Below are positions 5,142 to 64,000 of a DNA stretch of 64,000 nt, one piece after another. The translations under genes were made by a program, and so were the position numbers. The number at the start of each line of letters is the position of its first letter. Position 1 is the stretch's first letter. Source of the DNA: Aphanomyces cochlioides (taxonomy: Eukaryota; Oomycota; Saprolegniomycetes; Saprolegniales; Verrucalvaceae). Below the pieces are notes generated by a model. It was not told the origin of the DNA. It did no database searches and saw nothing but the letters and a program-made list of their open reading frames with translations. The stretch lies in NCBI GenBank assembly GCA_019828595.1, contig JAHQRK010000004.1, positions 1,550,001 through 1,614,000 of the forward strand, in the 5' to 3' direction.

Positions 5142-6048
5142 TTACGGCGGGGTTTGCTGTGCTAAAATGTCGTCGACATGTTTGGCAAGAGCAATTTCTT
5201 CCTTGGAATGCCCCAACGCAACGCTCCCGCCACCATAGTCTACAGAAGCCATCATTTGTTTCCAAATCAATGACTGAAGGATATGTACCCGACGGCAATT
5301 GATCTTCCGCAATGGATTTGAGCAACTCATCCTTGACGGCTTTGCCCTTGCAAATGCGAATCTTCTCCTTCGTGACCGGATCGATCATTGGGCTAATAAC
5401 CTTCCAGAGCATGTTGAACCACGACGGGACGTTCACGATGAAAATCTGCGCACTCCGTTCAGGATAATGCGCACCGACAAACCCCATCGCTTGACGGACA
5501 AAATCCATCACGTCGCCGGTGAAATCGTAAAAGCCAATGCCTTCAACGTCGAGGACTGTGACACTGCGGCCGCTGTCGGACGGCTCGAGGAGCGTCCACA
5601 TATATTCGGTCAAGAAAATATAATGGCGCATGAGTTCGTCCATCGTCAAGCCAGCAGCTTTCATCGCCTTGAGGTCAATCTTGCCCACTTTTTCGTAGTA
5701 GACGCATTGGCCTTTGATCGACTTGCCGTGGAAATACTGCGGATAGTTCCGCTTGATCAAGTGGAAATGAGGTTGAGGCTCGTAGAGAAGGCCATCGACG
5801 CGGTTTTCACGGCGCCACTGGAGCGTCTTTTCGAATCGAGCACGGCCTTTCACCTCATCGCCTTTTTCAGCAGCAATAAACCGTGGTGAAAATGCAATTT
5901 CTTGAATTGGATTCTGAGCCCTGTTGGATGCCGCTGGTGCCGCACTTGGAGGCGTAGCAGTGGTCTCCGCAGGTGCTGCCTCAGCTTCAGCAGCCGTTGC
6001 TGTTGTTGTAGCTGCAGAAGCTTCGATTTGGACAATTTGCATCGTCAC
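5142..6048 (-). CDS. SEC14-like CRAL-TRIO lipid-transfer protein, copy 2
   Basis: Exons 5289-6048 and 5142-5239 (49-bp intron, GTACAT/TAG) give 285 aa. A low-complexity Ala/Thr/Pro N-terminal region of about 45 residues precedes the CRAL-TRIO-N motif 'QWRRENRVDGLLYEPQPHF'. The SEC14 domain follows with 'VTVLDVEGIGFYDFTGDV' and 'HYPERSAQIFIVNVPSWF'. Splicing restores the C-terminal 'LPSDYGGGSVALGHSKEE', parallel to copy 1. Reading through the intron instead gives a long unrelated tail, so the spliced form is preferred. Copy 2 has no counterpart of copy 1's first intron. Expected role: binding and transfer of phosphoinositides or other lipids between membranes. Confidence 0.9.
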
Positions 6049-28174: not shown

Positions 28175-28621
28175 TCATTTGGTTGCCTCCTTGAGGAGCA
28201 CCATGCCGACGTCCTTGGGGTCATACTTGATTGTTTGTTGGGTCTCTTCATACGATAGTGCACTTGTGGCATCTGGGTCTTGGTGGCACCGGCGTCGCTT
28301 GGTGCACTTTGTGTGCGCTCGTTCATCCGACGCATGTCGCTTCTTGGTACCAACGAACGCGAGCGGGAATTCTCCCCCTTCACTCAGCCAAAAGTACATG
28401 GTCGGAGTTGAAAACTGGACGAGGCGTGAGCTCATCCGACGTCGTTTCGCCACTTGTGGCTCATCATCACAGTCGTGAGCACGTTTTGCCGAGCCATTTG
28501 CCACGACGCGTCGTTTCTTTGACACTTGTGGCCCACCAAGCTCGTCACGAGCGCGCTTCATGCCTTTGACATTTGTTTTCTCTTGGGTATCCTTGGCGTT
28601 TGTTGGACTGCCAACTTCCAC
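28175..28621 (-). pseudogene. Detached cyclin nuclear-region fragment (left arm)
   Basis: The frame encodes 148 aa matching the basic region that lies upstream of the cyclin box in the intact copies ('RRRMSSRLVQFSTPTM', 'KKRHASDERAHTK'). Here it lies downstream of the cyclin tail, so the order is permuted, as if one copy had been joined to the start of another. It ends 'VGMVLLKEATK' with no cyclin box after it. Confidence 0.7.
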
Positions 28622-30494
28622 GGGGGCGACGGGCCATCTTGTCGATACGACTGGTTTTGTACATCCGCGTCAAAGGGTTGGACGGGGGGAGCTTGCTCAC
28701 TCGAGCATACTTGCCGGACATGTACTTGACCGTGACTGCGCGAATATTCTCTGGGTCTGTCTGTGCAACTTGGTACTCGGCATGGTGAACCTTGTAGAGT
28801 TTTGCCACGCAGTCTCGAACTTGCTCAGCATTGTACGTTGTCAAATGATGTAATGTTGGCCTCTACGCGTGGAGAAAATAAGAGAGTCGACCAAATCTAG
28901 ACATACCCAAGGTGATTTCTCCTTTGCCACTACTCGCGTCATGTAAACTATCGAGGCCGCCAAGACAGATAGGGGGTGCGCAATTGTGATGGGATAGTCC
29001 ATCACGGCTAACTCGGCTAAATACTGAGTTCGATGTCAGTAAAAAAACAAGTGCAACGTCTTACATGAGCGAAATGCTGCTGTGTCTCGGTTGCACATAT
29101 CTCGAGGAAATGGTACCGGCCAACTGGTATTCGAGCGTTTCCAGGACAAGATTTTGCTTCAAACTTGTATGCGAGCATCATACACGCACATCCTAATAGC
29201 TGAAGCTTTCCTGGGGCAATTTTCATCACGGACAAACAACGATCAACCAAGTGCAAGGTGCAACGTGTGAGGCACCAAGTTGTCCATTTCTCCAATTTTG
29301 ACAAGCCAATCCATCAAGATACCACACATGCTGGGGTTAATATCACATTGGACCCATCTTTTTCTTCGGCGAGGCAATCGTGTTTGACCCGGTATTTTTC
29401 TCCATGTTGTCGTCGAAATGAATCGACTTCACGGGCGAGACCATCTTCATGCTTGGGAGTCAATCGGGCGAACTTGCTTCACACATTCATCCACGTCAAA
29501 TTCAGAGCCTACAACATTCGTCGTCAATTTTGTGTCAGGCGAGAGCGTGCGTACTCGAAGCACTCGTGCAAATTTCAAACAAATGCTGTCGTCGCTGCTG
29601 CTCGTGACGTAACGACGATCGTCTAGATTCTGGAGACCCTCCCGGTTCCTTCTCTTGACTGTGGAGAGTCGAGGTACCGACCCCTGAGGACTTTGGACGC
29701 TACATCTCGACGCCACCAAGATGGACTCAACGGCAAGGTCCATCGTGGTGGCGTCGAGATGTTGCGTCCAAAGTCCTCAGGGGTCGGTACATCTTCTTGT
29801 CTCTTGGGCCGTGGGAACGTCTGTTGAGTCTTCATCATGGTTGATCGGCCATGAGTGTCGCGTCGTTGTCTTCAAGCGTCCATCTTGAATCGTTTGATGT
29901 GGTTTCTTCATAGTCGTCGCCGATTGTGGCGACGTCAGACAAGACCAAGGAGTCGTCTGCATCGTCGATGACATCCGTGTCGGTATCGGAGTCTTGATTG
30001 TCTTCAATTGTCGAACTTGATATGATTGACATCAAGTCATCCTCGAGGTCTTCGCCCATTGTCGCCACGTCCGAGAAGATTTCTTCATCCATCGTTGCGG
30101 CCGTTGGGGATCGATGTCGTAGTCTTGCTTGATTGTCCTCTTTCGTCCAGCGAGGTTCGCTGTCTGTAAGGCTTTCTTCTTCTTGTTCTTGTTTGGGCAT
30201 CGTGGGCGCCATGTGGAGGGCGAGTGCCACATAAGTGAGCACCGCCAGGCAGCATCTCTTGAACGCAGACCCTGAGAACTTGGCACGCGTCGAGTCGAGT
30301 GGAGCTCCGACGAGACGATATTCTAGACACCACGGCTTGGGTTTTCTCACACCATATCGCCCTGGAATTGTCTTGGATGTATGTCGTCCATGCGACGACA
30401 CGCCGCGAGGTTCCAGAGCTTTGATAAAGTTCCGTCTGTGACGACTTTTGCTCAGATCTGCAGACCCGTATAGAGCTTCAAGCCACGCATACAA
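28545..30494 (-). pseudogene. Decayed cyclin gene (spacer plus left arm)
   Basis: Reading 5' to 3' on the minus strand: an N-terminal frame (29835-30494) with the hydrophobic segment 'CCLAVLTYVALALHM' and acidic region shared with the giant cyclin; one or two decayed TP repeats ('DVPTPEDFGRNISTPPRW'); the linker 'LSPDTKLTTNVVGSEFD'; a cyclin-box frame (29017-29304) with 'LVDRCLSVMKIAPGKLQLLG'; and the C-terminal tail 'YARVSKLPPSNPLTRM'. About 50 residues are missing from the middle of the first cyclin fold and frames are broken between blocks, so a working cyclin is unlikely. Confidence 0.8.
29675..29789. repeat. Imperfect hairpin at the inner edge of the left arm
   Basis: About 50-nt arms (29675-29725 and 29738-29789), for example 'CCCCTGAGGACTTTGG' against 'CCAAAGTCCTCAGGGG', around a 12-nt loop. 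A collapsed version of the same hairpin is at 30838-30908, at the inner edge of the right arm. Confidence 0.8.
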
Positions 30495-30704
30495 GCATAC
30501 TCTGACGCTCGACTGCTGCTGCTGGTAGACAGCCTTCCTGCCAAGGGGGGATGTTTTTCAGGGAAGAAAGATGGACTGACAACCATGTACATCCGGATGC
30601 CTGATAGGTATCCGGGTAAGAGTCAGTCTGCTGAATAATCCACACAAAAAGAATTTATATTTGGTTTTTGTATGTCGTTTATGAAAAAGAAAAGAATAAA
30701 GAGC

Positions 30705-30803
30705 TTAAATTCCAAATTCACCAAAAAAGTCGACATCTTTCTTGACTTCCTTCTTGGGAGGAGGTGCTGGCGCGGCCACTGGAGTTGGCGCTGGTGGCGG
30801 TGG
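30705..30803 (-). pseudogene. Pro-rich protein C-terminal fragment
   Basis: A short frame reads 'PPPPAPTPVAAPAPPPKKEV' and ends 'KKDVDFFGEFGI' at a stop, the look of a genuine acidic protein tail. Upstream it runs directly into the hairpin repeat, so it is a truncated, captured fragment. Source gene not recognised. Confidence 0.4.
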
Positions 30804-30866
30804 AGTATATGAGAGCCCAAGAGACAAGAAGATGTACCGACCCCTGAGGACTTTGGACGCGACATC

Positions 30867-32041
30867 TTGGTGGCGTCGAGATGTAGCGTCCAACGTCCTC
30901 AGGGGTCGGTACCTCGACTCTCCACAGTCAAGAGAAGGAACCGGGAAGGTCTCCAGAATCTAGACGATCGTCGTTACGTCACGAGCAGCAGCGACGACAG
31001 CATTTGTTTGAAATTTGCACGAGTGCTTCGAGTACGCACGCTCTCGCCTGACACAAAATTGACGACGAATGTTGTAGGCTCTGAATTTGACGTGGATGAA
31101 TGTGTGAAGCAAGTTCGCCCGATTGACTCCCAAGCATGAAGATGGTCTCGCCCGTGAAGTCGATTCATTTCGACGACAACATGGAGAAAAATACCGGGTC
31201 AAACACGATTGCCTCGCCGAAGAAAAAGATGGGTCCAATGTGATATTAACCCCAGCATGTGTGGTATCTTGATGGATTGGCTTGTCAAAATTGGAGAAAT
31301 GGACAACTTGGTGCCTCACACGTTGCACCTTGCACTTGGTTGATCGTTGTTTGTCCGTGATGAAAATTGCCCCAGGAAAGCTTCAGCTATTAGGATGTGC
31401 GTGTATGATGCTCGCATACAAGTTTGAAGCAAAATCTTGTCCTGGAAACGCTCGAATACCAGTTGGCCGGTACCATTTCCTCGAGATATGTGCAACCGAG
31501 ACACAGCAGCATTTCGCTCATGTAAGACGTTGCACTTGTTTTTTTACTGACATCGAACTCAGTATTTAGCCGAGTTAGCCGTGATGGACTATCCCATCAC
31601 AATTGCGCACCCCCTATCTGTCTTGGCGGCCTCGATAGTTTACATGACGCGAGTAGTGGCAAAGGAGAAATCACCTTGGGTATGTCTAGATTTGGTCGAC
31701 TCTCTTATTTTCTCCACGCGTAGAGGCCAACATTACATCATTTGACAACGTACAATGCTGAGCAAGTTCGAGACTGCGTGGCAAAACTCTACAAGGTTCA
31801 CCATGCCGAGTACCAAGTTGCACAGACAGACCCAGAGAATATTCGCGCAGTCACGGTCAAGTACATGTCCGGCAAGTATGCTCGAGTGAGCAAGCTCCCC
31901 CCGTCCAACCCTTTGACGCGGATGTACAAAACCAGTCGTATCGACAAGATGGCCCGTCGCCCCCGTGGAAGTTGGCAGTCCAACAAACGCCAAGGATACC
32001 CAAGAGAAAACAAATGTCAAAGGCATGAAGCGCGCTCGTGA
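30867..32041 (+). pseudogene. Inverted decayed cyclin copy (right arm)
   Basis: Mirror of the left arm: linker 'LSPDTKLTTNVVGSEFD' (within 30867-31139), cyclin-box frame 31282-31569, second cyclin fold, and tail frame 31742-32041 ('EQVRDCVAKLYKVHHAEYQV'). It lacks the N-terminal membrane and repeat region. It carries the same internal deletion as the left arm, so the decay came before the inversion-duplication or the arms have been homogenised. Confidence 0.8.
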
Positions 32042-32411
32042 CGAGCTTGGTGGGCCACAAGTGTCAAAGAAACGACGCGTCGTGGCAAATGGCTCGGCAA
32101 AACGTGCTCACGACTGTGATGATGAGCCACAAGTGGCGAAACGACGTCGGATGAGCTCACGCCTCGTCCAGTTTTCAACTCCGACCATGTACTTTTGGCT
32201 GAGTGAAGGGGGAGAATGCCCGCTCGCGTTCGTTGGTACCAAGAAGCGACATGCGTCGGATGAACGAGCGCACACAAAGTGCACCAAGCGACGCCGGTGC
32301 CACCAAGACCCAGATGCCACAAGTGCACTATCGTATGAAGAGACCCAACAAACAATCAAGTATGACCCCAAGGACGTCGGCATGGTGCTCCTCAAGGAGG
32401 CAACCAAATGA
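31965..32411 (+). pseudogene. Detached cyclin nuclear-region fragment (right arm)
   Basis: Mirror copy of 28175-28621, 148 aa with one residue changed. It overlaps the tail frame of the preceding pseudogene in another frame. Confidence 0.7.
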
Positions 32412-40209: not shown

Positions 40210-42059
40210 CTAGAGTTGTGTACATGTCAAATTGGGTTGAACAGGGGGGAGCTTGCTCACTCGAGCATACTTGCCGAACATGTACTTGGCCGTGACTGCG
40301 CGAATTTTCTCTGGGTCTGTCTGCGAAACTTGGTACTCGGCATGGTGAATGTTGTAGAGCTTTGCCACACAATCTCGAACTTGCTCCACATTGTACGTTG
40401 TGTACTCATACAATGTTGGTGTCTACGCGTAGACTAAGTGAGAACGAAAGTCGGCCAAATCCTGACATACCCAAGGTGATTTCTCGTTTGTCACTACTCG
40501 CGTCATGTAAACTATCGAGGCCGCCAAGACAGATGGGGGGTGCGCAATTGTAATGGGATAGTCCATCACGGCTAACTCGGCTAAATACTGAGCTCAATGT
40601 CAGTAAAAAAACAAGCGCGACGCCTTACATGAGCGAAATGTTGCTGTGTCTCGGTTGGACATCCAGCCTGGATAAATCTCTCGAGGAAATGGTAGACATG
40701 GGTACCGGCCAACTTGTATTCGAGGGTTTCCAGGACCATATTTTCCATGGCCAACATGTCGTCCTTTGTGTATGGGTGATCACTCATGGTGACGAAGCGT
40801 TGAACAATTTGGCCACCCTGTGATTCGACCTTGCATGCGAGCATCATGCACGCACATCCTAATAGCTGAAGCTTTTCTCGGCCAATTTTCACCACGGACA
40901 AACAACGATCAACCAAGTGAAAAGCAAGGTGCAACGTGTGAGGCGCCAACTTGAACATTTCTCCAACTCTGACAAGCCAGTCCATCAAGATACCACGCAT
41001 TGTGGAGTTGATGTCTCCACCTTTTTCTTCTGCGAGGTAATCGTACTTCACTCGATATTTCTCTTCATGTTGTCGTCGAAATGAATCGACTTCACGAGCG
41101 AGATCATTTTCCTCCTTGGGGTCCATCGGGCGGGCTTGCTTCACATTTACATCCACGTCAAGCTCAGAGCCTACATCATTCGTCGTCAATTTTATGTCCC
41201 GGGCGAGAGTATGCGTACTCAAAGCTCTCGTGCGAATGTCAAGCATGTGCTGTCGTCGGCGCTGTTCATGACTTAACGACGGCCGTCTAGATTCTGGAGA
41301 CCGTCCCAGAGGGGCTTTGTTCACTTGACTGTGGCGAGATTTCTGGTGGAACTGCATCTCTTGGTCCAGCATATCCACTCTGAGCCAACGGGTCTCGTTG
41401 TATGAGGGTGTACTTGTGGCGGCAGCAGCTGTGACGTGGTGGCGCTGGCGCTTGGCGTAGTTGCTGTACCCTTGTTCGTTCGACGCGTGACGCTTCTTGG
41501 TACGAAGAAGCGGGAGACGGTACTCTCCTCTTTCACTTTGCCAGAAGTGCATGGTCGGAGTTGAAAACTGGACGAGGCGTGAGCTCATCCGACGTCGTTT
41601 CGCCACTTGTGGCTCATCATCATAGTCCAGACCACGTTTTGTCGAACCATTTGCCACGACGCGTCGTCGCTTTGGCACTTGTGAATCAACACACTCGTCT
41701 TGGGGGCGCTTCGACGCCTTGACTTTCGCTTTCACTTGGGTATCCTTGGCATATGTTGTAGGCAGGCCAACAACCCTTGGGGTGGCCGAGTCTCTTCGTC
41801 TTTTCGCCCAATTTGGCGGGGTGGACGTGCCTAAGTCACCCGGCGTCGTCGTGTCTTCTTCTCTTGGCGCACAATTTGGTGGCATGGACATGCCAAAGTC
41901 AACCGGTGTCGCCGGGTCTTCTTCTCGATGTGACGATGAATGGCTCTGGGTGCCAAAGTCAATCGGCATCGCCGGGTGTTCTTCTCTTCTCGCATGGTTA
42001 GGCGACATGGACGTGCCAAAGTCAACTGGCGTCACCGGGTCTTTCGTGGTTTCACCCAA
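40210..42059 (-). CDS. A/B-type cyclin, short copy (copy B), N terminus frameshifted
   Basis: Exons 40629-42059, 40471-40587 and 40210-40422 (introns 41 and 48 bp) give 586 aa from the first ATG of the cyclin frame. Complete cyclin fold: 'STMRGILMDWLVRVGE' (the MRAIL-type helix 1 signature), 'HLAFHLVDRCLSVVKI', 'LQLLGCACMMLACKVES'. The second fold has 'YLAELAVMDYPITIAHPPS' and the terminal 'KYARVSKLPP'. Upstream are five TP repeats and a basic nuclear-type region ('KRRRMSSRLVQF'). The ancestral start at 42303 ('MMNTILRCCLAVLMYVALAL') is out of frame because of two one-base deletions, near 42040 and 42130, relative to the giant copy. A start at 42059 would remove the membrane-like N terminus. 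Expected role: CDK partner in mitosis. Confidence 0.8.
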
Positions 42060-42303
42060 TTTGGCGGGGTGGACGTGCCAAAGTCAACCGGCGTCGACGG
42101 GTCTTCTTGTGGTTTCACCCAATTTGGCGGGGGGACGTGCCAAAGTCAACCGGCGTCGCTTCGACATCTTCTTGTTTCCAGCGAGGTTCGCTGTTTGCCG
42201 GGCTTGCTTCTTCTTGTTGCTTGGGCAACATCATCGTCATGTGGAGGGCGAGTGCCACATACATTAGCACCGCCAGGCAGCATCGGAGGATCGTGTTCAT
42301 CAT
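42060..42303 (-). pseudogene. Frameshifted 5' part of cyclin copy B
   Basis: The frame from 42303 encodes the N-terminal hydrophobic helix and 'EEASPANSEPRWKQEDVEAT' and then stops at 42115. The giant copy has GGCGGGGTGGACG where this copy has GGCGGGGGGACG, and TCTTCTCGTGG where this copy has TCTTTCGTGG. The net loss is 2 bp. Confidence 0.75.
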
Positions 42304-44311: not shown

Positions 44312-44580
44312 AAAGTAACTTATCTGACAGGATGCGCTGTAAAAATAACTTTATCTTGTGACCGCACTGATGCCATGAATATATTTATTCCTCGCAGTCA
44401 AGGAATAAATATATTCCTCGCAGTCAAGGAATAAATATATTCATGGCATCAGTGCGGTCACAAGATAAAGTTATTTTATATATTTATTCCTCGCAGTCAA
44501 GGAATAAATATATTCATGGCATCAGTGCGGTCACAAGATAAAGTTATTTTTACAGCGCATCCTGTCAGATAAGTTACTTT
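44312..44580. repeat. Fold-back structure with perfect 80-bp arms
   Basis: Arms 44312-44391 and 44501-44580 are exact inverses. The 109-bp centre contains a further partial copy of the right arm and 'CCTCGCAGTCAAGGAATAAA' repeats. It could be a small fold-back element or a template-switch product. Confidence 0.9.
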
Positions 44581-47906: not shown

Positions 47907-50900
47907 CTAGAGTTGTGTACATGTCAAATTGGGTTGAACAGGGGGGAGCTTGCTCACTCGAGCATACTTGCCGAACATGTACTTGGCCGTGACTGCGCGA
48001 ATTTTCTCTGGGTCTGTCTGCGAAACTTGGTACTCGGCATGGTGAATGTTGTAGAGCTTTGCCACACAGTCTCGAACTTGCTCCACATTGTACGTTGTGT
48101 ACTCATACAATGTTGGTGTCTACGCGTAGACTAAGTGAGAACGAAAGTCGGCCAAATCCTGACATACCCAAGGTGATTTCTCGTTTGTCACTACTCGCGT
48201 CATGTAAACTATCGAGGCCGCCAAGACAGATGGGGGGTGCGCAATTGTAATGGGATAGTCCATCACGGCTAACTCGGCTAAATACTGAGCTCAATGTCAG
48301 TAAAAAAACAAGCGCGACGCCTTACATGAGCGAAATGTTGCTGTGTCTCGGTTGGACATCCAGCCTGGATAAATCTCTCGAGGAAATGGTAGACATGGGT
48401 ACCGGCCAACTTGTATTCGAGGGTTTCCAGGACCATATTTTCCATGGCCAACATGTCGTCCTTTGTGTATGGGTGATCACTCATGGTGACGAAGCGTTGA
48501 ACAATTTGGCCACCCTGTGATTCGACCTTGCATGCGAGCATCATGCACGCACATCCTAATAGCTGAAGCTTTTCTCGGCCAATTTTCACCACGGACAAAC
48601 AACGATCAACCAAGTGAAAAGCAAGGTGCAACGTGTGAGGCGCCAACTTGAACATTTCTCCAACTCTGACAAGCCAGTCCATCAAGATACCACGCATTGT
48701 GGAGTTGATGTCTCCACCTTTTTCTTCTGCGAGGTAATCGTACTTCACTCGATATTTCTCTTCATGTTGTCGTCGAAATGAATCGACTTCACGAGCGAGA
48801 TCATTTTCCTCCTTGGGGTCCATCGGGCGGGCTTGCTTCACATTTACATCCACGTCAAGCTCAGAGCCTACATCATTCGTCGTCAATTTTATGTCCCGGG
48901 CGAGAGTATGCGTACTCAAAGCTCTCGTGCGAATGTCAAGCATGTGCTGTCGTCGGCGCTGCTCATGACTTAACGACGGCCGTCTTGATTCTGGAGACCG
49001 TCTCAGAGGAGGTTTGTTGTCTTGAATGTGGAGAGCTTTCTGATTGTTCTGCTTCGCTCGGTACGGCATCTCCGTTCTGAGGCAAAAGGTCTCTTCACAT
49101 GATGGTGCACTTGCGGCGACAGCAGGTGTGTCGTGGTGGCACTTGCGTCGCTTGGCGTAGTTGGTGTTCCCTTGTTCGTCCGATGCGTGACGCTTCTTGG
49201 TACGAAGGAGCGGGAGACGGCACTCTCCCCTTTCACTTTGCCAGAAGTGCATGGTCGGAGTTGAAAACTGGACGAGGCGTGAGCTCATCCGACGTCGTTT
49301 CGCCACTTGTGGCTCATCATCATAGTCCAGACCACGTTTTGTCGAACCATTTGCCACGCGTCGTCGCTTTGGCACTTGTGAATCAACACACTCGTCTTGG
49401 GGGCGCTTCGACGCCTTGACTTTCGCTTTCACTTGGGTAACCTTGGCATATGTTGTATGCACGCCAACAACCCCGGGGGTGGCCGAGTCTCTTCGTCTTT
49501 TCGCACTATTGGGCGACGTCGACATGCCAAGGTCAACCAGCGTCACCGGGTCTTCTCGTGGTTTCACCCAATTTGGCGGAGTGGACGTACCAAAGCCAAC
49601 GGGCGTCGCCGGGTCTTCTTCTGGACGTGACGATGAAAGGCTCTGGGTGCCAACGTCAATCGGCGTCGCCGTGGATTCTTCACTTCGCGCAAAATTTGGC
49701 GACGTCGACATGGCAAAGTACACTGGCGTCGCTGGGGCTTCTTCTGGTTTAACCCAATTTGGCGACGTCGACATGGCAAAGTTCACCGGCGTCGCTGGGG
49801 CTTCTTCTGGTTTCTCCCAATTTGGCGGGGTGGACGTGCCAAACTCGATGGGCGTCGCCGTGGGTTCTTCTCTTCGCGCAAAATTTGGCGACATGGACAT
49901 GGCAAAGTTCACCGGCGTCGCTGGGGCTTCTTCTGGTTTCTCCCAATTTGGCGGGGTGGACGTGTCAAAGTCGATGGGCGTCGCCGTGGATTCTTCTCTT
50001 CGCGCAAAATTTGGCGACATGGACATGGCAAAGTTCACCGGCGTCGCTGGGGCTTCTTCTGGTTTCACCCAATTTGGCGGGGTGGACGTGCCAAAGTCGA
50101 TCGGCGTCGCCGTGGATTCTTCTCTTCGCGCAAAATTTGGCGACATGGACATGGCAAAGTTCACCGGCGTCGCTGGGGCTTCTTCTGGTTTCACCCAATT
50201 TGGCGGGGTGGACGTGCCAAAGTCGATCGGCGTCGCCGGGTCTACTTCTTGACGTGACGAAGAAAGGCTGAGGGAGCCAAAGTTGATGGGCGTCGCCGTG
50301 GATTCTTCTCTTCGCGCAAAATTTGGCGACATGGACATGGCAAAGTTCACCGGCGTCGCTGGGGCTTCTTCTGGTTTCACCCAATTTGGCGGGGTGGACG
50401 TGCCAAAGTCGATCGGCGTCGCCGTGGATTCTTCTCTTCGCGCAAAATTTGGCGACATGGACATGGCAAAGTTCACCGGCGTCGCTGGGGCTTCTTCTGG
50501 TTTCACCCAATTTGGCGGGGTGGACGTGCCAAAGTCGATCGGCGTCGCCGGGTCTACTTCTTGACGTGACGAAGAAAGGCTGAGGGAGCCAAAGTTGATG
50601 GGCGTCGCCGTGGATTCTTCTCTTCGCGCAAAATTTGGCGACATGGACATGGCAAAGTTCACCGGCGTCGCTGGGGCTTCTTCTGGTTTCACCCAATTTG
50701 GCGGGGTGGACGTGCCAAAGTCGATCGGCGTCGCCGGGTCTACTTCTTGACGTGACGAAGAAAGGCTGAGGGAGCCAAAGTTGATGGGCGTCGCCGTGGA
50801 TTCGTCTCTTCGCGCAAAATTTGGCGACATGGACTTGGCAAAGTTCACCGGCGTCGCTGGGGCTTCTTCTGGTTTCTCCCAATTTGGCGGGGTGGACGTG

Positions 50901-53900
50901 CCAAAGTCGATCGGCATCGCCGTGGATTCTTCTCTTCGCGCAAAATTTGGCGACATGGACATGGCAAAGTTCACCGGCGTCGCTGGGGCTTCTTCTGGTT
51001 TCACCCAATTTGGCGGGGTGGACGTGCCAAAGTCGATCGGCGTCGCCGGGTCTACTTCTTGACGTGACGAAGAAAGGCTGAGGGAGCCAAAGTTGATGGG
51101 CGTCGCCGTGGATTCGTCTCTTCGCGCAAAATTTGGCGACATGGACATGGCAAAGTTCACCGGCGTCGCTGGGGCTTCTTCTGGTTTCACCCAATTTGGC
51201 GGGGTGGACGTGCCAAAGTCGATCGGCGTCGCCGGGTCTACTTCTTGACGTGACGAAGAAAGGCTGAGGGAGCCAAAGTTGATGGGCGTCGCCGTGGATT
51301 CGTCTCTTCGCGCAAAATTTGGCGACATGGACTTGGCAAAGTTCACCGGCGTCGCTGGGGCTTCTTCTGGTTTCTCCCAATTTGGCGGGGTGGACGTGCC
51401 AAAGTCGATCGGCATCGCCGTGGATTCTTCTCTTCGCGCAAAATTTGGCGACATGGACATGGCAAAGTTCACCGGCGTCGCTGGGGCTTCTTCTGGTTTC
51501 ACCCAATTTGGCGGGGTGGACGTGCCAAAGTCGATCGGCGTCGCCGGGTCTACTTCTTGACGTGACGAAGAAAGGCTGAGGGAGCCAAAGTTGATGGGCG
51601 TCGCCGTGGATTCGTCTCTTCGCGCAAAATTTGGCGACATGGACATGGCAAAGTTCACCGGCGTCGCTGGGGCTTCTTCTGGTTTCACCCAATTTGGCGG
51701 GGTGGACGTGCCAAAGTCGATCGGCGTCGCCGGGTCTACTTCTTGACGTGACGAAGAAAGGCTGAGGGAGCCAAAGTTGATGGGCGTCGCCGTGGATTCG
51801 TCTCTTCGCGCAAAATTTGGCGACATGGACATGGCAAAGTTCACCGGCGTCGCTGGGGCTTCTTCTGGTTTCACCCAATTTGGCGGGGTGGACGTGCCAA
51901 AGTCGATCGGCGTCGCCGGGTCTACTTCTTGACGTGACGAAGAAAGGCTGAGGGAGCCAAAGTTGATGGGCGTCGCCGTGGATTCGTCTCTTCGCGCAAA
52001 ATTTGGCGACATGGACATGGCAAAGTTCACCGGCGTCGCTGGGGCTTCTTCTGGTTTCACCCAATTTGGCGGGGTGGACGTGCCAAAGTCGATCGGCGTC
52101 GCCGGGTCTACTTCTTGACGTGACGAAGAAAGGCTGAGGGAGCCAAAGTTGATGGGCGTCGCCGTGGATTCGTCTCTTCGCGCAAAATTTGGCGACATGG
52201 ACATGGCAAAGTTCACCGGCGTCGCTGGGGCTTCTTCTGGTTTCACCCAATTTGGCGGGGTGGACGTGCCAAAGTCGATCGGCGTCGCCGGGTCTACTTC
52301 TTGACGTGACGAAGAAAGGCTGAGGGAGCCAAAGTTGATGGGCGTCGCCGTGGATTCGTCTCTTCGCGCAAAATTTGGCGACATGGACATGGCAAAGTTC
52401 ACCGGCGTCGCTGGGGCTTCTTCTGGTTTCACCCAATTTGGCGGGGTGGACGTGCCAAAGTCGATCGGCGTCGCCGGGTCTACTTCTTGACGTGACGAAG
52501 AAAGGCTGAGGGAGCCAAAGTTGATGGGCGTCGCCGTGGATTCGTCTCTTCGCGCAAAATTTGGCGACATGGACATGGCAAAGTTCACCGGCGTCGCTGG
52601 GGCTTCTTCTGGTTTCACCCAATTTGGCGGGGTGGACGTGCCAAAGTCGATCGGCGTCGCCGGGTCTACTTCTTGACGTGACGAAGAAAGGCTGAGGGAG
52701 CCAAAGTTGATGGGCGTCGCCGTGGATTCTTCTCTTCGCGCAAAATTTGGCGACATGGACATGGCAAAGTTCACCGGCGTCGCTGGGGCTTCTTCTGGTT
52801 TCACCCAATTTGGCGGGGTGGACGTGCCAAAGTCGATCGGCGTCGCCGGGTCTACTTCTTGACGTGACGAAGAAAGGCTGAGGGAGCCAAAGTTGATGGG
52901 CGTCGCCGTGGATTCGTCTCTTCGCGCAAAATTTGGCGACATGGACATGGCAAAGTTCACCGGCGTCGCTGGGGCTTCTTCTGGTTTCACCCAATTTGGC
53001 GGGGTGGACGTGCCAAAGTCGATCGGCGTCGCCGGGTCTACTTCTTGACGTGACGAAGAAAGGCTGAGGGAGCCAAAGTTGATGGGCGTCGCCGTGGATT
53101 CGTCTCTTCGCGCAAAATTTGGCGACATGGACATGGCAAAGTTCACCGGCGTCGCTGGGGCTTCTTCTGGTTTCACCCAATTTGGCGGGGTGGACGTGCC
53201 AAAGTCGATCGGCGTCGCCGGGTCTACTTCTTGACGTGACGAAGAAAGGCTGAGGGAGCCAAAGTTGATGGGCGTCGCCGTGGATTCGTCTCTTCGCGCA
53301 AAATTTGGCGACATGGACATGGCAAAGTTCACCGGCGTCGCTGGGGCTTCTTCTGGTTTCACCCAATTTGGCGGGGTGGACGTGCCAAAGTCGATCGGCG
53401 TCGCCGGGTCTACTTCTTGACGTGACGAAGAAAGGCTGAGGGAGCCAAAGTTGATGGGCGTCGCCGTGGATTCGTCTCTTCGCGCAAAATTTGGCGACAT
53501 GGACATGGCAAAGTTCACCGGCGTCGCTGGGGCTTCTTCTGGTTTCACCCAATTTGGCGGGGTGGACGTGCCAAAGTCGATCGGCGTCGCCGGGTCTACT
53601 TCTTGACGTGACGAAGAAAGGCTGAGGGAGCCAAAGTTGATGGGCGTCGCCGTGGATTCGTCTCTTCGCGCAAAATTTGGCGACATGGACATGGCAAAGT
53701 TCACCGGCGTCGCTGGGGCTTCTTCTGGTTTCACCCAATTTGGCGGGGTGGACGTGCCAAAGTCGATCGGCGTCGCCGGGTCTACTTCTTGACGTGACGA
53801 AGAAAGGCTGAGGGAGCCAAAGTTGATGGGCGTCGCCGTGGATTCGTCTCTTCGCGCAAAATTTGGCGACATGGACATGGCAAAGTTCACCGGCGTCGCT

Positions 53901-56900
53901 GGGGCTTCTTCTGGTTTCACCCAATTTGGCGGGGTGGACGTGCCAAAGTCGATCGGCGTCGCCGGGTCTACTTCTTGACGTGACGAAGAAAGGCTGAGGG
54001 AGCCAAAGTTGATGGGCGTCGCCGTGGATTCGTCTCTTCGCGCAAAATTTGGCGACATGGACATGGCAAAGTTCACCGGCGTCGCTGGGGCTTCTTCTGG
54101 TTTCACCCAATTTGGCGGGGTGGACGTGCCAAAGTCGATCGGCGTCGCCGGGTCTACTTCTTGACGTGACGAAGAAAGGCTGAGGGAGCCAAAGTTGATG
54201 GGCGTCGCCGTGGATTCTTCTCTTCGCGCAAAATTTGGCGACATGGACATGGCAAAGTTCACCGGCGTCGCTGGGGCTTCTTCTGGTTTCACCCAATTTG
54301 GCGGGGTGGACGTGCCAAAGTCGATCGGCGTCGCCGGGTCTACTTCTTGACGTGACGAAGAAAGGCTGAGGGAGCCAAAGTTGATGGGCGTCGCCGTGGA
54401 TTCGTCTCTTCGCGCAAAATTTGGCGACATGGACATGGCAAAGTTCACCGGCGTCGCTGGGGCTTCTTCTGGTTTCACCCAATTTGGCGGGGTGGACGTG
54501 CCAAAGTCGATCGGCGTCGCCGGGTCTACTTCTTGACGTGACGAAGAAAGGCTGAGGGAGCCAAAGTTGATGGGCGTCGCCGTGGATTCGTCTCTTCGCG
54601 CAAAATTTGGCGACATGGACATGGCAAAGTTCACCGGCGTCGCTGGGGCTTCTTCTGGTTTCACCCAATTTGGCGGGGTGGACGTGCCAAAGTCGATCGG
54701 CGTCGCCGGGTCTACTTCTTGACGTGACGAAGAAAGGCTGAGGGAGCCAAAGTTGATGGGCGTCGCCGTGGATTCGTCTCTTCGCGCAAAATTTGGCGAC
54801 ATGGACATGGCAAAGTTCACCGGCGTCGCTGGGGCTTCTTCTGGTTTCACCCAATTTGGCGGGGTGGACGTGCCAAAGTCGATCGGCGTCGCCGGGTCTA
54901 CTTCTTGACGTGACGAAGAAAGGCTGAGGGAGCCAAAGTTGATGGGCGTCGCCGTGGATTCGTCTCTTCGCGCAAAATTTGGCGACATGGACATGGCAAA
55001 GTTCACCGGCGTCGCTGGGGCTTCTTCTGGTTTCACCCAATTTGGCGGGGTGGACGTGCCAAAGTCGATCGGCGTCGCCGGGTCTACTTCTTGACGTGAC
55101 GAAGAAAGGCTGAGGGAGCCAAAGTTGATGGGCGTCGCCGTGGATTCGTCTCTTCGCGCAAAATTTGGCGACATGGACATGGCAAAGTTCACCGGCGTCG
55201 CTGGGGCTTCTTCTGGTTTCACCCAATTTGGCGGGGTGGACGTGCCAAAGTCGATCGGCGTCGCCGGGTCTACTTCTTGACGTGACGAAGAAAGGCTGAG
55301 GGAGCCAAAGTTGATGGGCGTCGCCGTGGATTCGTCTCTTCGCGCAAAATTTGGCGACATGGACATGGCAAAGTTCACCGGCGTCGCTGGGGCTTCTTCT
55401 GGTTTCACCCAATTTGGCGGGGTGGACGTGCCAAAGTCGATCGGCGTCGCCGGGTCTACTTCTTGACGTGACGAAGAAAGGCTGAGGGAGCCAAAGTTGA
55501 TGGGCGTCGCCGTGGATTCGTCTCTTCGCGCAAAATTTGGCGACATGGACATGGCAAAGTTCACCGGCGTCGCTGGGGCTTCTTCTGGTTTCACCCAATT
55601 TGGCGGGGTGGACGTGCCAAAGTCGATCGGCGTCGCCGGGTCTACTTCTTGACGTGACGAAGAAAGGCTGAGGGAGCCAAAGTTGATGGGCGTCGCCGTG
55701 GATTCGTCTCTTCGCGCAAAATTTGGCGACATGGACATGGCAAAGTTCACCGGCGTCGCTGGGGCTTCTTCTGGTTTCACCCAATTTGGCGGGGTGGACG
55801 TGCCAAAGTCGATCGGCGTCGCCGGGTCTACTTCTTGACGTGACGAAGAAAGGCTGAGGGAGCCAAAGTTGATGGGCGTCGCCGTGGATTCGTCTCTTCG
55901 CGCAAAATTTGGCGACATGGACATGGCAAAGTTCACCGGCGTCGCTGGGGCTTCTTCTGGTTTCACCCAATTTGGCGGGGTGGACGTGCCAAAGTCGATC
56001 GGCGTCGCCGGGTCTACTTCTTGACGTGACGAAGAAAGGCTGAGGGAGCCAAAGTTGATGGGCGTCGCCGTGGATTCGTCTCTTCGCGCAAAATTTGGCG
56101 ACATGGACATGGCAAAGTTCACCGGCGTCGCTGGGGCTTCTTCTGGTTTCACCCAATTTGGCGGGGTGGACGTGCCAAAGTCGATCGGCGTCGCCGGGTC
56201 TACTTCTTGACGTGACGAAGAAAGGCTGAGGGAGCCAAAGTTGATGGGCGTCGCCGTGGATTCGTCTCTTCGCGCAAAATTTGGCGACATGGACATGGCA
56301 AAGTTCACCGGCGTCGCTGGGGCTTCTTCTGGTTTCACCCAATTTGGCGGGGTGGACGTGCCAAAGTCGATCGGCGTCGCCGGGTCTACTTCTTGACGTG
56401 ACGAAGAAAGGCTGAGGGAGCCAAAGTTGATGGGCGTCGCCGTGGATTCGTCTCTTCGCGCAAAATTTGGCGACATGGACATGGCAAAGTTCACCGGCGT
56501 CGCTGGGGCTTCTTCTGGTTTCACCCAATTTGGCGGGGTGGACGTGCCAAAGTCGATCGGCGTCGCCGTGGATTCGTCTCTTCGCGCAAAATTTGGCGAC
56601 ATGGACATGGCAAAGTTCACCGGCGTCGCTGGGGCTTCTTCTGGTTTCACCCAATTTGGCGGGGTGGACGTGCCAAAGTCGATCGGCGTCGCCGGGTCTA
56701 CTTCTTGACGTGACGAAGAAAGGCTGAGGGAGCCAAAGTTGATGGGCGTCGCCGTGGATTCGTCTCTTCGCGCAAAATTTGGCGACATGGACATGGCAAA
56801 GTTCACCGGCGTCGCTGGGGCTTCTTCTGGTTTCACCCAATTTGGCGGGGTGGACGTGCCAAAGTCGATCGGCGTCGCCGTGGATTCGTCTCTTCGCGCA

Positions 56901-59050
56901 AAATTTGGCGACATGGACATGGCAAAGTTCACCGGCGTCGCTGGGGCTTCTTCTGGTTTCACCCAATTTGGCGGGGTGGACGTGCCAAAGTCGATCGGCG
57001 TCGCCGGGTCTACTTCTTGACGTGACGAAGAAAGGCTGAGGGAGCCAAAGTTGATGGGCGTCGCCGTGGATTCGTCTCTTCGCGCAAAATTTGGCGACAT
57101 GGACATGGCAAAGTTCACCGGCGTCGCTGGGGCTTCTTCTGGTTTCACCCAATTTGGCGGGGTGGACGTGCCAAAGTCGATCGGCGTCGCCGGGTCTACT
57201 TCTTGACGTGACGAAGAAAGGCTGAGGGAGCCAACGTTGATGGGCGTCGCTGGGGCTTCTTCTGGTTTCACCCAATTTGGCGGGGTGGACGTGCCAAAGT
57301 CAATGGGCGTCGCCGTGGATTCGTCTCTTCGCGCAAAATTTGGCGACATGGACATGGCAAAGTTCACCGGCGTCGCTGGGGCTTCTTCTGGTTTCACCCA
57401 ATTTGGCGGGGTGGACGTGCCAAAGTCGATCGGCGTCGCCGGGTCTACTTCTTGACGTGACGAAGAAAGGCTGAGGGAGCCAACGTTGATGGGCGTCGCT
57501 GGGGCTTCTTCTGGTTTCACCCAATTTGGCGGGGTGGACGTGCCAAAGTCAATGGGCGTCGCCGTGGATTCGTCTCTTCGCGCAAAATTTGGCGACATGG
57601 ACATGGCAAAGTTCACCGGCGTCGCTGGGGCTTCTTCTGGTTTCACCCAATTTGGCGGGGTGGACGTGCCAAAGTCGATCGGCGTCGCCGGGTCTACTTC
57701 TTGACGTGACGAAGAAAGGCTGAGGGAGCCAAAGTTGATGGGCGTCGCCGTGGATTCGTCTCTTCGCGCAAAATTTGGCGACATGGACATGGCAAAGTTC
57801 ACCGGCGTCGCTGGGGCTTCTTCTGGTTTCACCCAATTTGGCGGGGTGGACGTGCCAAAGTCGATCGGCGTCGCCGGGTCTACTTCTTGACGTGACGAAG
57901 AAAGGCTGAGGGAGCCAAAGTTGATGGGCGTCGCTGGGGCTTCTTCTGGTTTCACCCAATTTGGCGGGGTGTACGTGCCAAAGTCAATGGGCGTCGCCGT
58001 GGATTCTTCTCTTCGCGCAAAATTTGGCGACATGGACATGGCAAAGTTCACCGGCGTCGCTGGGGCTTCTTCTGGTTTCACCCAATTTGGCGGGGTGGAC
58101 GTGCCAAAGTCGATGGGCGTCGCCGTGGATTCGTCTCTTCGCGCAAAATTTGGCGACATGGACATGGCAAAGTTCACCGGCGTCGCTGGGGCTTCTTCTG
58201 GCTTCACCCAATTTGGCGGGGTGGACGTGTCAAAGTTGATGGGCGTCGCCGTGGATTCTTCTCTTCGCGCAAAATTTGGCGACGTCGACATGCCATAGTC
58301 AACCGGCGCCGCAGGGTCTTCTTTTTGACGTGTCGATGAATGGCTCTGGCTGGCAAAGGCAACCGGTGTCGCTGGGATTTCGGCTTTGTGGGTCGAAAAT
58401 TCATCAACATCGCTATCGTCGTGGCCCGTCTTGCTTGACGCCTCCGTCTCGGACTTGTGTTTTTCTTGTTTTGCAAGGAGGATTATAAGAATGATCGCCG
58501 TTGTGAGGTCGATGTGCGCCGCGACGAGTTTTTTTGCCGCTTCGATGCGGTCCAGATTCTGTGGCATCTTGGTGTCTTCGTTCGTCGGTGTGGCCGCCAA
58601 GGCAGTGTCCTCCTCATCGGGCTTGTCGCACCAATTGATGGTGGATTCCGTCGATGTCATGTCTTGAGTGTCATCGCTCGTTGGAATGTCTGTCGAGTCT
58701 TCGTCAATTTCTTGAATTTCCCCGCCAGTTGCCGCGACATCCGACCACTCGTCATCGGTCATGACATTCATGTCGACACCGGAGTCTTCATTGTCTTCAA
58801 TCCTCGAACTTGATTCGATTGACATCAATTCGTCCTCGAGGTCTTCGCCCGTGGTTGCCACGTCCGAGACTATCGAGTGTTCTTCATTCATCGCGGTCGA
58901 GTCTTCGACATCTTCTTGTTTCCAGCGAGGTTCACTCTTTGTCGGGCTTGCTTCATCTTCTTGTTGCTTGGGCAACATCATCGTCATGTGGAGGGCGAGT
59001 GCCACATACATAAGCACCGCCAGGCAGCATCGGAGGATCGTGTTCATCAT
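47907..59050 (-). CDS. Giant repeat-containing A/B-type cyclin (copy C), about 3,684 aa
   Basis: Exon 1 is 48326-59050 (3,575 codons), then 48168-48284 and 47907-48119 (introns 41 and 48 bp). Layout: a hydrophobic N-terminal helix (residues 5-25, 'LRCCLAVLMYVALALHM'); an acidic region; a second hydrophobic stretch (about 174-193, 'HIDLTTAIILIILLA'); and roughly 2,900 residues of tandem repeats of a 20-21-residue module, [ATP][I/V][D/N]F[G/A]xSxxPN-like. A basic nuclear-type region ('VPKRRR', 'AKRRRMSSRLVQF') and a complete cyclin follow. In the cyclin, 'STMRGILMDWLVRVGE' and 'HLVDRCLSVVKIGREKLQLL' belong to the first fold, and 'YLAELAVMDYPITIAHPPS' and 'KYARVSKLPP' to the second. A CDK-activating role is expected from the fold. 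The repeats add five Ser/Thr-Pro sites per 62 residues. Normal mitotic cyclins have 400-600 residues. Confidence 0.87.
49560..58372 (-). repeat. In-frame tandem repeat array, usual period 186 bp (62 aa)
   Basis: I count 38 copies of the marker 'TCTACTTCTTGACGTGACG' on the plus strand. Between about 51735 and 56385 they fall exactly every 186 bp (25 intervals). At both edges spacing changes to 249 or 312 bp, that is 4 or 5 subunits of 62-63 bp. One 186-bp unit encodes three diverged modules: 'DPATPIDFGTSTPPNWVKPE', 'APATPVNFAMSMSPNFARRD' and 'STATPINFGSLSLSSSRQ'. Core copies are almost identical; two carry GATTCT instead of GATTCG (52730 and 54218), 8 units apart. Confidence 0.95.
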
Positions 59051-60114: not shown

Positions 60115-63100
60115 GAACACATTGGCATCGTGTCGGATTGTCCTTTTATTGCCAGGGGTGAAGGGGTTCATAACCTCTTAAATAAATATGCTTCATTAAT
60201 TGATACTTAAAGAAATCTATAATTTGATCTCAAGAAAGGCGCGCACTCTGTGGTTGTCGAATCCATGTTCCCAATTGCTCCTCACGCTCAAACGTCAAAG
60301 AAGAGGTACTACATCTGCAGACAAGTCCAAGATCAAGGTGAAGTAGATGCATACTACTCGAAAAACGGACGAAGGGGACGCTCAAAGAAGCAAGGCGAGC
60401 CGCCAACCAGATTGATGTGGGGATCTTCGTGGGCAGACACGTGCTCATTTCGTCGTCACGTTGAGGAGCATTATGTATTGTCCTTGGGGGTCTTTATGGG
60501 TAGACACGTGTTTCTCAAGGCGGTGACGAAACGAACAATTGTCCACCCATAGAGACCCCCCAAGGACAATGGCATGGTGCTCCTCAAGGTGGCGAAGAAA
60601 AGCAATGTGTCCACAGGGCAATCGCACGGTACTTTGACAAAGTCCATGCTATTCTTATCATTGCCGCCATTTGGAGCCGTCCCAAGCCATTGGGTGTGTA
60701 CGTGTTTCAAGAAACAAGACGACGGCCGGCCCCGTTCTCTGTGTGTGTCAACAACGTCGTGGTGCAAATACTCAACGTCAAATTTCCATTTGGTGGTGTC
60801 GGGCTCGTCGGGAATGGGGCTATACCACGGCAAGCTCTAATTTGATACGTTTTCCCGCGCCGTGGCCATCCTGCGCAAGCTATTTTCGCTCGACTGGTCG
60901 CTGCGATACATGCCGTTCACGCCTATGAGCGTCAAAATTGTGTGGGTTCTTATGGCAGGGGACATAAGAAGCCACACAATTTTGTCGTTCAGAGGAGTTT
61001 ACGGCATGTTCATGGCATTCCTCGTGCACTTGACTTCATTTAGCGGCAAAGCCTCCATCCTACAAGAACTCTCGGCGACGTCGTCATTGATCAATTGTCA
61101 TAATTGTTGAGAATTCACTTGATTTGTTTTTCCACGCTTCACATGGAGCGCGCTGCCTCATCCAAGACATCCAAGGGAGCTCATGTTGCAGAAACAACCC
61201 GAGAAGTGTCCATTGTTGAGTCCTTGCCACTTTTGCTCCTGTTGGCATCGGAGGCACTAGGTATTAGATCGTCGGCGCGGAGAACTCAGGATGCGCACCA
61301 TCAGTATGAAATCATGAAACATGCATTAACTAGTTTTAATATATAAATCCTACAGACTAAGATGTCGACCGCGCTCAGCATCAACGGCGCCTGGCGCCCG
61401 CGCTTGCTGCGGTGACGATTGGAGGACAGTTGCTCGCTTGGTCGCCAAGAGAGGAAGAAACACTGAATGTTCTTTGGAAATGCAGACTTTGAACGAGATG
61501 ACGACCAAGACGACACACTATCCGAGAGATTTGAGCAAGCCAAGGCCCTCGAGCAGATGAGGATGCAAGAAAGCGGCTTCAACTCGGGTTCATTGATCTT
61601 GGATGCCACCCAAACATCCCCAGAGACGCTCCAACAGCGCAATCCTTGACATAAATTTTGCACACATAAATGGAACGTCTTGTGGACTGCTGTCTTGACA
61701 AATCTTGCCAACTAGAGTTGCATATTTGTCAAATAGGGTTGGAAAGGGGGAGCTTCAAGCCTCACAGAGGACACGCGGTAGCATGGAAAGCACGTGATGC
61801 ACCAAGTACACCACCTGCTGCGGCCTTGGGCAAAGTGCTTCAAAATTTCTACGACGAGAAAATGTATCCAAAAATTACGTTGGAGCAAAAGTGCAATCCA
61901 GTAAAAATTTGTCGTCGTACCAGAGGCGATCGTAATGCTTCACGACATTGGATTTAATTCGTTGCCATGAAAGATGGAAAAGGTTTTTTGATCTTGAATG
62001 CCACCGACTTGCGCTCTCGTCGTTGCCATCCTTGACATAATTTGTTGCGCACGAGTGATACCATAAATTGGATCGGTACAGAGGCCTTCTGGACTGCTGT
62101 TTTCCCAAAATCTTGCCGACTAGAGTTGTGTACATGTCAAATTGGGTTGAACAGGGGGGAGCTTGCTCACTCGAGCATACTTGCCGAACATGTACTTGGC
62201 CGTGACTGCGCGAATTTTCTCTGGGTCTGTCTGCGAAACTTGGTACTCGGCATGGTGAATGTTGTAGAGCTTTGCCACACAGTCTCGAACTTGCTCCACA
62301 TTGTACGTTGTGTACTCATACAATGTTGGTGTCTACGCGTAGACTAAGTGAGAACGAAAGTCGGCCAAATCCTGACATACCCAAGGTGATTTCTCGTTTG
62401 TCACTACTCGCGTCATGTAAACTATCGAGGCCGCCAAGACAGATGGGGGGTGCGCAATTGTAATGGGATAGTCCATCACGGCTAACTCGGCTAAATACTG
62501 AGCTCAATGTCAGTAAAAAAACAAGCGCGACGCCTTACATGAGCGAAATGTTGCTGTGTCTCGGTTGGACATCCAGCCTGGATAAATCTCTCGAGGAAAT
62601 GGTAGACATGGGTACCGGCCAACTTGTATTCGAGGGTTTCCAGGACCATATTTTCCATGGCCAACATGTCGTCCTTTGTGTATGGGTGATCACTCATGGT
62701 GACGAAGCGTTGAACAATTTGGCCACCCTGTGATTCGACCTTGCATGCGAGCATCATGCACGCACATCCTAATAGCTGAAGCTTTTCTCGGCCAATTTTC
62801 ACCACGGACAAACAACGATCAACCAAGTGAAAAGCAAGGTGCAACGTGTGAGGCGCCAACTTGAACATTTCTCCAACTCTGACAAGCCAGTCCATCAAGA
62901 TACCACGCATTGTGGAGTTGATGTCTCCACCTTTTTCTTCTGCGAGGTAATCGTACTTCACTCGATATTTCTCTTCATGTTGTCGTCGAAATGAATCGAC
63001 TTCACGAGCGAGATCATTTTCCTCCTTGGGGTCCATCGGGCGGGCTTGCTTCACATTTACATCCACGTCAAGCTCAGAGCCTACATCATTCGTCGTCAAT

Positions 63101-64000
63101 TTTATGTCCCGGGCGAGAGTATGCGTACTCAAAGCTCTCGTGCGAATGTCAAGCATGTGCTGTCGTCGGCGCTGCTCATGACTTAACGACGGCCGTCTTG
63201 ATTCTGGAGACCGTCTCAGAGGAGGTTTGTTGTCTTGAATGTGGAGAGCTTTCTGATTGTTCTGCTTCGCTCGGTACGGCATCTCCGTTCTGAGGCAAAA
63301 GGTCTCTTCACATGATGGTGCACTTGCGGCGACAGCAGGTGTGTCGTGGTGGCACTTGCGTCGCTTGGCGTAGTTGGTGTTCCCTTGTTCGTCCGATGCG
63401 TGACGCTTCTTGGTACGAAGGAGCGGGAGACGGCACTCTCCCCTTTCACTTTGCCAGAAGTGCATGGTCGGAGTTGAAAACTGGACGAGGCGTGAGCTCA
63501 TCCGACGTCGTTTCGCCACTTGTGGCTCATCATCATAGTCCAGACCACGTTTTGTCGAACCATTTGCCACGCGTCGTCGCTTTGGCACTTGTGAATCAAC
63601 ACACTCGTCTTGGGGGCGCTTCGACGCCTTGACTTTCGCTTTCACTTGGGTAACCTTGGCATATGTTGTATGCACGCCAACAACCCCGGGGGTGGCCGAG
63701 TCTCTTCGTCTTTTCGCACTATTGGGCGACGTCGACATGCCAAGGTCAACCAGCGTCACCGGGTCTTCTCGTGGTTTCACCCAATTTGGCGGAGTGGACG
63801 TACCAAAGCCAACGGGCGTCGCCGGGTCTTCTTCTGGACGTGACGATGAAAGGCTCTGGGTGCCAACGTCAATCGGCGTCGCCGTGGATTCTTCACTTCG
63901 CGCAAAATTTGGCGACGTCGACATGGCAAAGTACACTGGCGTCGCTGGGGCTTCTTCTGGTTTAACCCAATTTGGCGACGTCGACATGGCAAAGTTCACC
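60115..64000. repeat. Start of the next 14.2-kb tandem unit
   Basis: Collinear with 45898-49787 and almost identical. Differences include a shorter C-run (CCCCCC against CCCCCCCCC near 60557/46343) and one extra G near 61572. The window ends inside the repeat-bearing exon. Confidence 0.93.
62120..64000 (-). CDS. A/B-type cyclin, next tandem copy (copy D), 5' end beyond window
   Basis: Exons 62539 to beyond 64000, 62381-62497 and 62120-62332 reproduce copy C, with the same introns and protein wherever visible: the first TP modules, the basic nuclear-type region and both cyclin folds. The window ends within the repeat modules, so the length of its repeat array cannot be told. The intact frame suggests it too is functional. 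If the assembly is right, the cluster holds at least two long cyclin genes in head-to-tail order. Confidence 0.88.

Follow-up and report, generated by a model that had tools for sequence, protein, structure and literature searches.

The 64,000-nucleotide stretch analyzed here (C34:1550001-1614000, hereafter "the window") comes from the 76.2-Mb genome of Aphanomyces cochlioides, a root-rot water mould, and carries a gene, G2, in which an A/B-type cyclin is preceded by an unusually long array of short modules rich in Thr-Pro (TP). Joining four exons gives a product of 3,668 amino acids (aa) and 398 kDa that ends in a single stop (TAG, 47909-47907). We favor, at a probability of roughly 0.36, the reading that this is a real lineage-specific gene that fuses the cyclin to a disordered array of docking motifs and phosphosites of its own, and this array would trap the complex that the cyclin forms with its cyclin-dependent kinase (CDK) and Cks. 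Feature coordinates are collected in Table 1.

The original prediction placed a hydrophobic N terminus, a long run of modules, and a complete A/B-type cyclin with introns in a single frame, and the spliced model, with GT-AG splice sites, bears this out. Two details needed revision. The N terminus is hydrophobic as described, but it holds two segments instead of one helix: the two most hydrophobic 19-residue stretches are residues 8-26 (mean hydropathy, 2.1) and 175-193 (2.4), separated by an acidic region (residues 28-180; 45 Asp/Glu versus 10 Lys/Arg). Introns 2 and 3 of the cyclin part stand, but intron 1 was missing from the earlier account. It is supported by the ordinary A. cochlioides paralogue P0003, since the matching 48 nucleotides (nt) there contain a TAA stop and are omitted from the public model. 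The uninterrupted open reading frame at G2 covers 48278-59050 on the reverse strand (3,590 aa).

By domain and fold the C-terminal part is a cyclin. Pfam matched Cyclin_N (E = 5.8e-35) and Cyclin_C (E = 1.5e-25) in the spliced C-terminal 491 aa, and the closest PDB relative is cyclin A2 (E = 5e-39). The part of the cyclin encoded by exons 1 and 2 was modelled by AlphaFold2 with a mean pLDDT of 70.5, the core helices reaching about 90, and the top Foldseek match of the predicted fold was cyclin A (1ogu_D; E = 9.2e-8; TM, 0.58). The CDK-contact Lys and Glu (K266 and E295 in cyclin A2 numbering) are kept in 13 of 13 aligned sequences. P0003 shares Cyclin_N and Cyclin_C, the intron positions, the K266/E295 equivalents, and 80% identity over the aligned cyclin with the giant, but it is only 398 aa long, has the destruction box (D-box) RGALEDISN, Glu at the position of cyclin A2 E220, and one TP, and lacks the hydrophobic N terminus and the array.

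Two usual features of a cyclin fail in the giant, namely, the acidic pocket and the D-box. In the hydrophobic patch, the equivalents of M210, I213, and W217 are kept; E220, which in cyclin A2 recognizes the Arg of RxL motifs, is replaced by Arg, and E224 is replaced by Met. These changes recur in all four family members: each has Arg or Lys at 220 and Met or Ile at 224. Among the 26 of 32 database proteins that show the motif, position 220 is Glu in 23, Gly in 1, and Lys in 2, the last both being family members. The D-box RGAL[EQ]DISN is present in eight oomycete cyclins (P0003, P0004, P0006, P0007, P0008, P0010, P0011, and P0014); a destruction box was not found in the giant, in A. euteiches P0002 and P0013, or in P0030 (AC1031_015413), a shorter A. 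cochlioides paralogue with TP sites, and neither RxxLxxxxN nor KEN occurs in the giant's sequence, P0001. The excerpted text of a study of Clb2 gives its hydrophobic patch as N260, L264, Y267 (as printed), and K270, and in a model described there K270 pairs with E45 in the PEKLQF motif of Cdc6 (PMC8830886). From equal spacing, we infer that E220 of cyclin A2 corresponds to Clb2 K270; on that mapping, the family pocket would thus be shifted toward that of an LxF-reading mitotic cyclin.

The array is built of 21-residue modules, chiefly A (STPPNWVKPEEAPATPVNFAM), B (SMSPNFARRDESTATPINF), and C (GSLSLSSSRQEVDPATPIDFGT), and was called by the repeat finder TRF at 49756-58251 with a period of 186, 45.6 copies, and 90% matches. 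The 62-residue unit described originally does exist, and the five Ser/Thr-Pro (S/T-P) dipeptides attributed to it were counted as four TP and one SP; the array, however, is a mixture of module orders, mostly ABC with AB insertions, and not a pure tandem of such units. The forecast of roughly 190 or more potential CDK sites also holds, with 190 TP and 51 SP dipeptides, or 241 minimal sites, against residue-shuffle means of 45 and 61. This large total comes mostly from copying, since a single unit reaches at least five S/T-P in 3.0% of single-unit shuffles. TP-[LIVM]-x-F, in contrast to its shuffle mean of 0.4 (maximum, 3 in 300 shuffles), occurs 135 times; a unit holds three versus 0.008 expected, and none of 200,000 shuffles reached three, a count tempered by the probable common origin of the three modules. 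PxTP occurs 91 times (shuffle mean, 6.8; maximum, 13), about half of the TP sites lie in this context, and all 91 have an S/T-P 12 to 30 residues downstream. RxL motifs are absent from the array. With F/I/L/P/V/W/Y as the relevant residue class at -2, 15 of 15 TP sites in P0030 conform, and 4 of 6 in P0013 have a hydrophobic residue or Pro there; the last module ahead of the cyclin reads TPVAF in both.

Such an array might instead serve as a spacer, a long disordered tether from a membrane anchor to a nuclear cyclin, in which length would matter and TP sites would not. A pair of hydrophobic segments followed by a disordered stretch of about 3,000 residues and then by basic clusters suits a tether, as do array lengths that vary between copies, but TP and TP-Phi-x-F are enriched, and the short arrays of P0013 and P0030 retain TP sites; we consider this explanation improbable.

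G2 is one of six cyclin copies arranged in tandem on one strand, with stop contexts at 40210, 47907, 62120, 76029, 90313, and 106457 in window coordinates extended beyond its end. Four of the six (G2 to G5) are giants. G2 and G3 (3,567 aa) are intact, the cyclin of G4 carries a single additional base, and G5 has one open frame of 4,311 codons with the middle of the array in another frame. The flanks of the giants are near-identical (upstream, G2 and G3 agree at 2,498 of 2,499 aligned bases) while array lengths differ, and the near-identity of the flanks therefore points to recent amplification. Older relatives lie at 955-963 kb of the same contig, C34, and at 28-32 kb of the window, and N termini alone lie at C34 1,005-1,012 kb. 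The 955-kb gene has the giant's order of N terminus, modules, and cyclin and is interrupted by TGA. Among the matches listed, those to the array are all on C34; P0003 (AC1031_011621), on C19, has none of the giant's additions. One Cks gene was found in the genome. The cluster and its lineage-specific family are additions to the original prediction. They also bear on whether the gene might be an artefact of assembly or annotation, with copies or junctions that are not real in the cell or transcripts that begin downstream of the array. Some copies are indeed broken by single-base differences, but four giants with different array lengths between near-identical flanks, and a 955-kb gene with the same order of parts, make an artefact improbable.

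The mechanism that we propose for the trap begins with the giant cyclin binding CDK1 and Cks1. The kinase would phosphorylate the array in cis, minimal sites being sufficient through proximity; phosphorylated PxTP would then bind Cks1, and the [IV]xF motifs of the array would bind the altered cyclin pocket, so that the complex might be retained by the tail of its own cyclin, which would prime itself and act as a trap or buffer. The hydrophobic segments could anchor the protein to a membrane, leaving the array and cyclin exposed to the cytosol or nucleus, and a longer or shorter array would set the strength of the trap. The idea of an in-cis CDK substrate, raised in the original prediction, is partly supported, as it fits the PxTP sites, the TP-[IV]-x-F motifs, the charge reversal of the pocket, and the loss of the D-box. 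A fuller version, a self-trapping cyclin that has lost its degradation signal, reversed its docking charge, and carries about 135 TP-[IV]-x-F modules in cis that buffer or count CDK activity, tuned by repeat and gene copy number, seems to us unlikely.

The closest mechanism in print is the inhibition of Clb2-Cdk1 by Cdc6, which follows phospho-priming and places a phospho-TP on Cks1 and LxF in the pocket, according to the portion of that report at hand (PMC6620034). The yeast proteins Cdc6 and Swe1, both LxF- and Cks1-dependent inhibitors of mitotic CDK (M-CDK), resemble the giant in pairing disordered TP sites with a hydrophobic-x-Phe motif; in yeast these are recognized by Cks1 and by the pocket of the mitotic cyclin (PMC6620034). 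They are, however, separate proteins with few sites, whereas the giant's array is fused to the cyclin and has about 135 motifs with Ile or Val in place of Leu. Yeast Sic1 likewise undergoes multisite, Cks1-guided phosphorylation and loses site specificity inside its complex, but it has nine consensus CDK sites and is not a cyclin, as given in extracts of PMC7160111. Those extracts name PxTP as the ideal Cks1 motif and state that induced proximity in Sic1 complexes makes consensus quality unimportant, an effect that would let the giant's minimal sites work in cis (PMC7160111). The range from a Cks1 site to a downstream CDK site is 12 to 30 residues in the available part of PMC9852432.

Comparisons of nonsynonymous (N) and synonymous (S) changes indicate purifying selection on the N terminus and the cyclin, and the recently homogenized array shows none. 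The N terminus of the giant differs from that of the 955-kb paralogue by N73:S36 (expected N fraction, 0.79; p = 0.002), the cyclin box from that of the ordinary paralogue by N46:S24 (p = 0.005), and the first piece of the cyclin box from the 955-kb copy by N8:S8 (p = 0.008). Omega for the cyclin, giant versus the C19 and 955-kb copies, is 0.32 to 0.53. In our reading, the gene family is fast-evolving and partly constrained, and the giant arrays are too young to test.

Several observations weigh against a functional CDK trap. The array shows no selection of its own, the variants over all 583 modules giving N33:S12 (p = 0.87; a tally of 413 of the 583, without module C and certain variants, gave N10:S4), and breaks are present in several sister copies. 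The TP codons of diverged modules do speak for the trap, with 4 synonymous and 0 changed, versus 0 and 11 elsewhere (Fisher p = 0.0007), but the alignment behind this test was itself anchored on TP, a choice that favors the result. No significant constraint was found in the second piece of the cyclin box against the 955-kb copy (N33:S12; p = 0.2) or in either hydrophobic segment alone (p = 0.58 and 0.46), and omega for the linker, giant versus copy 1, is 0.97. Of 50 polarized amino acid changes between the giant and the ordinary cyclin, 48 fall on the giant branch; should synonymous changes be shared equally between branches, evolution along the family branch may be nearly neutral. At the level of motifs, the array has no full S/T-P-x-K/R site, and priming by PxTP of a site 12 to 16 residues downstream was rejected (0 of 91). 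Exact LxF is also absent from the array, although [LIV]xF occurs 137 times; the Leu is essential in yeast LxF, in the portion of PMC6620034 cited above. Finally, hydrophobic segment 1 may act as a signal peptide and direct the protein elsewhere.

The main rival, which we regard as possible but doubtful, is a neutral minisatellite expansion in a decaying tandem paralogue, produced by unequal exchange, open because the unit length is divisible by three and stops in it are few, and without function. A second reading frame is open across the array for 2,444 codons; openness alone is therefore weak evidence of coding, and we rejected the open frame as proof of it. The lack of selection in the array, the concentration of polarized changes on the giant branch (48 of 50), and the broken relatives (copy 1, G4 by 1 nt, G5 by frame, the 955-kb copy by TGA, and the inverted pair at 28-32 kb) fit this rival, and the database hits include no public gene model from A. 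cochlioides for the cluster. Decay is harder to reconcile with omega below 1 in the N terminus and cyclin, with intact CDK-contact residues and splice sites, with the 91% identity of A. euteiches P0002 over the cyclin, and with a TP-Phi-x-F core that diverged lineages retain, as TPVAF in both P0030 and P0013.

The N terminus raises another alternative, a secreted, host-directed nuclear protein whose signal peptide, nuclear localization signal (NLS)-like linker, and D-box-free cyclin would act on the plant cell cycle. The N-terminal hydrophobic segment is kept in the N termini at 955, 962, 1005, and 1580 kb, the genes are clustered and fast evolving, and family members among the hits come only from two plant-infecting species. 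In A. euteiches, small secreted proteins with a predicted NLS occur in clusters, as reported in the part of PMC5907361 available; the word cyclin does not occur in that paper. A size of 398 kDa and a second hydrophobic segment, which would stop transfer, speak against secretion, and our literature search found no cyclin-like effector; we think this alternative has little likelihood.

The giants belong to a fast-evolving Aphanomyces cyclin family that is present also in A. euteiches. P0002 and P0013 are family cyclins with Lys at 220, and P0013 has TPPxW/TP modules ahead of its cyclin, but both are short or partial models, with no long array in those records. Four hits (P0004, P0005, P0008, and P0010) represent A. 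stellatus, A. invadans, and A. astaci and are of the ordinary type, with Glu at 220 in three of four and Gly in one, and a D-box in three of four, the fourth being a partial model. Three protein searches were made by length (about 270-859, 605-1,925, and 1,975-6,283 aa), each reaching only relatives that share exact words. None of 1,180 candidates of 1,975-6,283 aa reached E <= 1e-3 with the cyclin part, and, apart from an 894-aa Closterium cyclin and one of 636 aa, the 4,029 candidates in the 605-1,925 aa range included no giant cyclin. A literature search returned nothing on giant, secreted, or membrane cyclins. The earlier statement that no described cyclin with such a domain is known agrees with these protein searches, which covered about 270 to 6,280 aa, and with that literature search. 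The nearest known size change is that of mammalian cyclin B3, which was much enlarged by extension of one exon, but the enlargement is about threefold, and neither a tandem CDK-site array nor membrane segments are described in the excerpt of PMC11811201.

Other traces of the family were observed on C34. A head-to-head inverted pair of degenerate copies occupies window 28241-32345, with cyclin fragments at 29152-29475 (-) and 31111-31434 (+). At C34:1658218-1660359 (L014 4218-6359), a family N terminus gives way to another type of repeat, about 95 residues long (SEGYFADETEDDFSLEEPYFCLQSRTLFSRVLNELK...), and then to the TP array in another frame. L031, L032, and L033 (C34 1,005-1,012 kb) are genes or fragments that have the same hydrophobic N terminus, KAKEEA repeats, and basic clusters, with no cyclin match nearby. 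Domain order is shuffled, the basic KKRR linker lying 3' of the cyclin in older copies (L016 4321-4641; window 28178-28669) and 5' in the giant. CSRNP_N was rejected as the source of the giant's linker, as this Pfam family matches P0013 but not that linker; sequence similar to that of P0013 follows the family N terminus in L034 (C34, about 962 kb), and clusters of CSRNP_N matches lie on C3 near 1.68-1.71 Mb and C9 near 0.72 Mb. Elsewhere in the window are two adjoining direct repeats of 26 and 73 bp that look non-coding (44377-44550) and ordinary genes for a CRAL/TRIO protein (4735-6042, -), a KRI1-like protein (22819-24801, +), and a PP2C-like phosphatase (24846-25820, -).

Table 1. Positions of the giant cyclin gene, its parts, and neighboring copies, in window coordinates
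Feature	Position	Strand	Details
Giant TP-array cyclin gene, copy G2	47907-59050	-	3,668 aa spliced
Exon 1: hydrophobic segments, acidic region, array, basic linker	48916-59050	-	
Hydrophobic segment 1, candidate signal peptide or signal anchor	58973-59029	-	residues 8-26; hydropathy
Hydrophobic segment 2, candidate transmembrane helix	58472-58528	-	residues 175-193; hydropathy
Array	49481-58345	-	residues 236-3190; modules A (51), B (49), C (38), few variants
Basic linker, NLS-like	48971-49501	-	KRRR/KRRK clusters
Intron 1	48868-48915	-	48 nt; GT-AG; GTACGC..GATGTAG; frame kept if retained
Exon 2: cyclin N box	48326-48867	-	
Cyclin_N domain	48407-48778	-	E = 1.5e-33 in P0001 (giant)
Codon of cyclin A2 E220 equivalent	48665-48667	-	Arg; residue 3462 of P0001
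Intron 2	48285-48325	-	41 nt; GT-AG
Exon 3: start of cyclin C	48168-48284	-	
Intron 3	48120-48167	-	48 nt; GT-AG
Exon 4: end of cyclin C, stop	47907-48119	-	
Copy 1, short family member, few modules	40210-42303	-	frame broken between N terminus and array
G3, 3' part within window	62120-64000	-	extends to 72960 beyond window; intact

Among the cases cited here, cyclins, CDK substrates, and inhibitors that dock on Cks are distinct molecules. If the giant protein is made, it would represent a novel type of cell-cycle protein that regulates itself, about 400 kDa in size and possibly anchored in a membrane. If the proposed trap is true, a cyclin bearing hundreds of sites and matching docking motifs for its own complex would lend itself naturally to studies of multisite phosphorylation, buffering, and counting in which array length is the natural variable, and it would show a route by which a duplicated cyclin escapes its destruction box.

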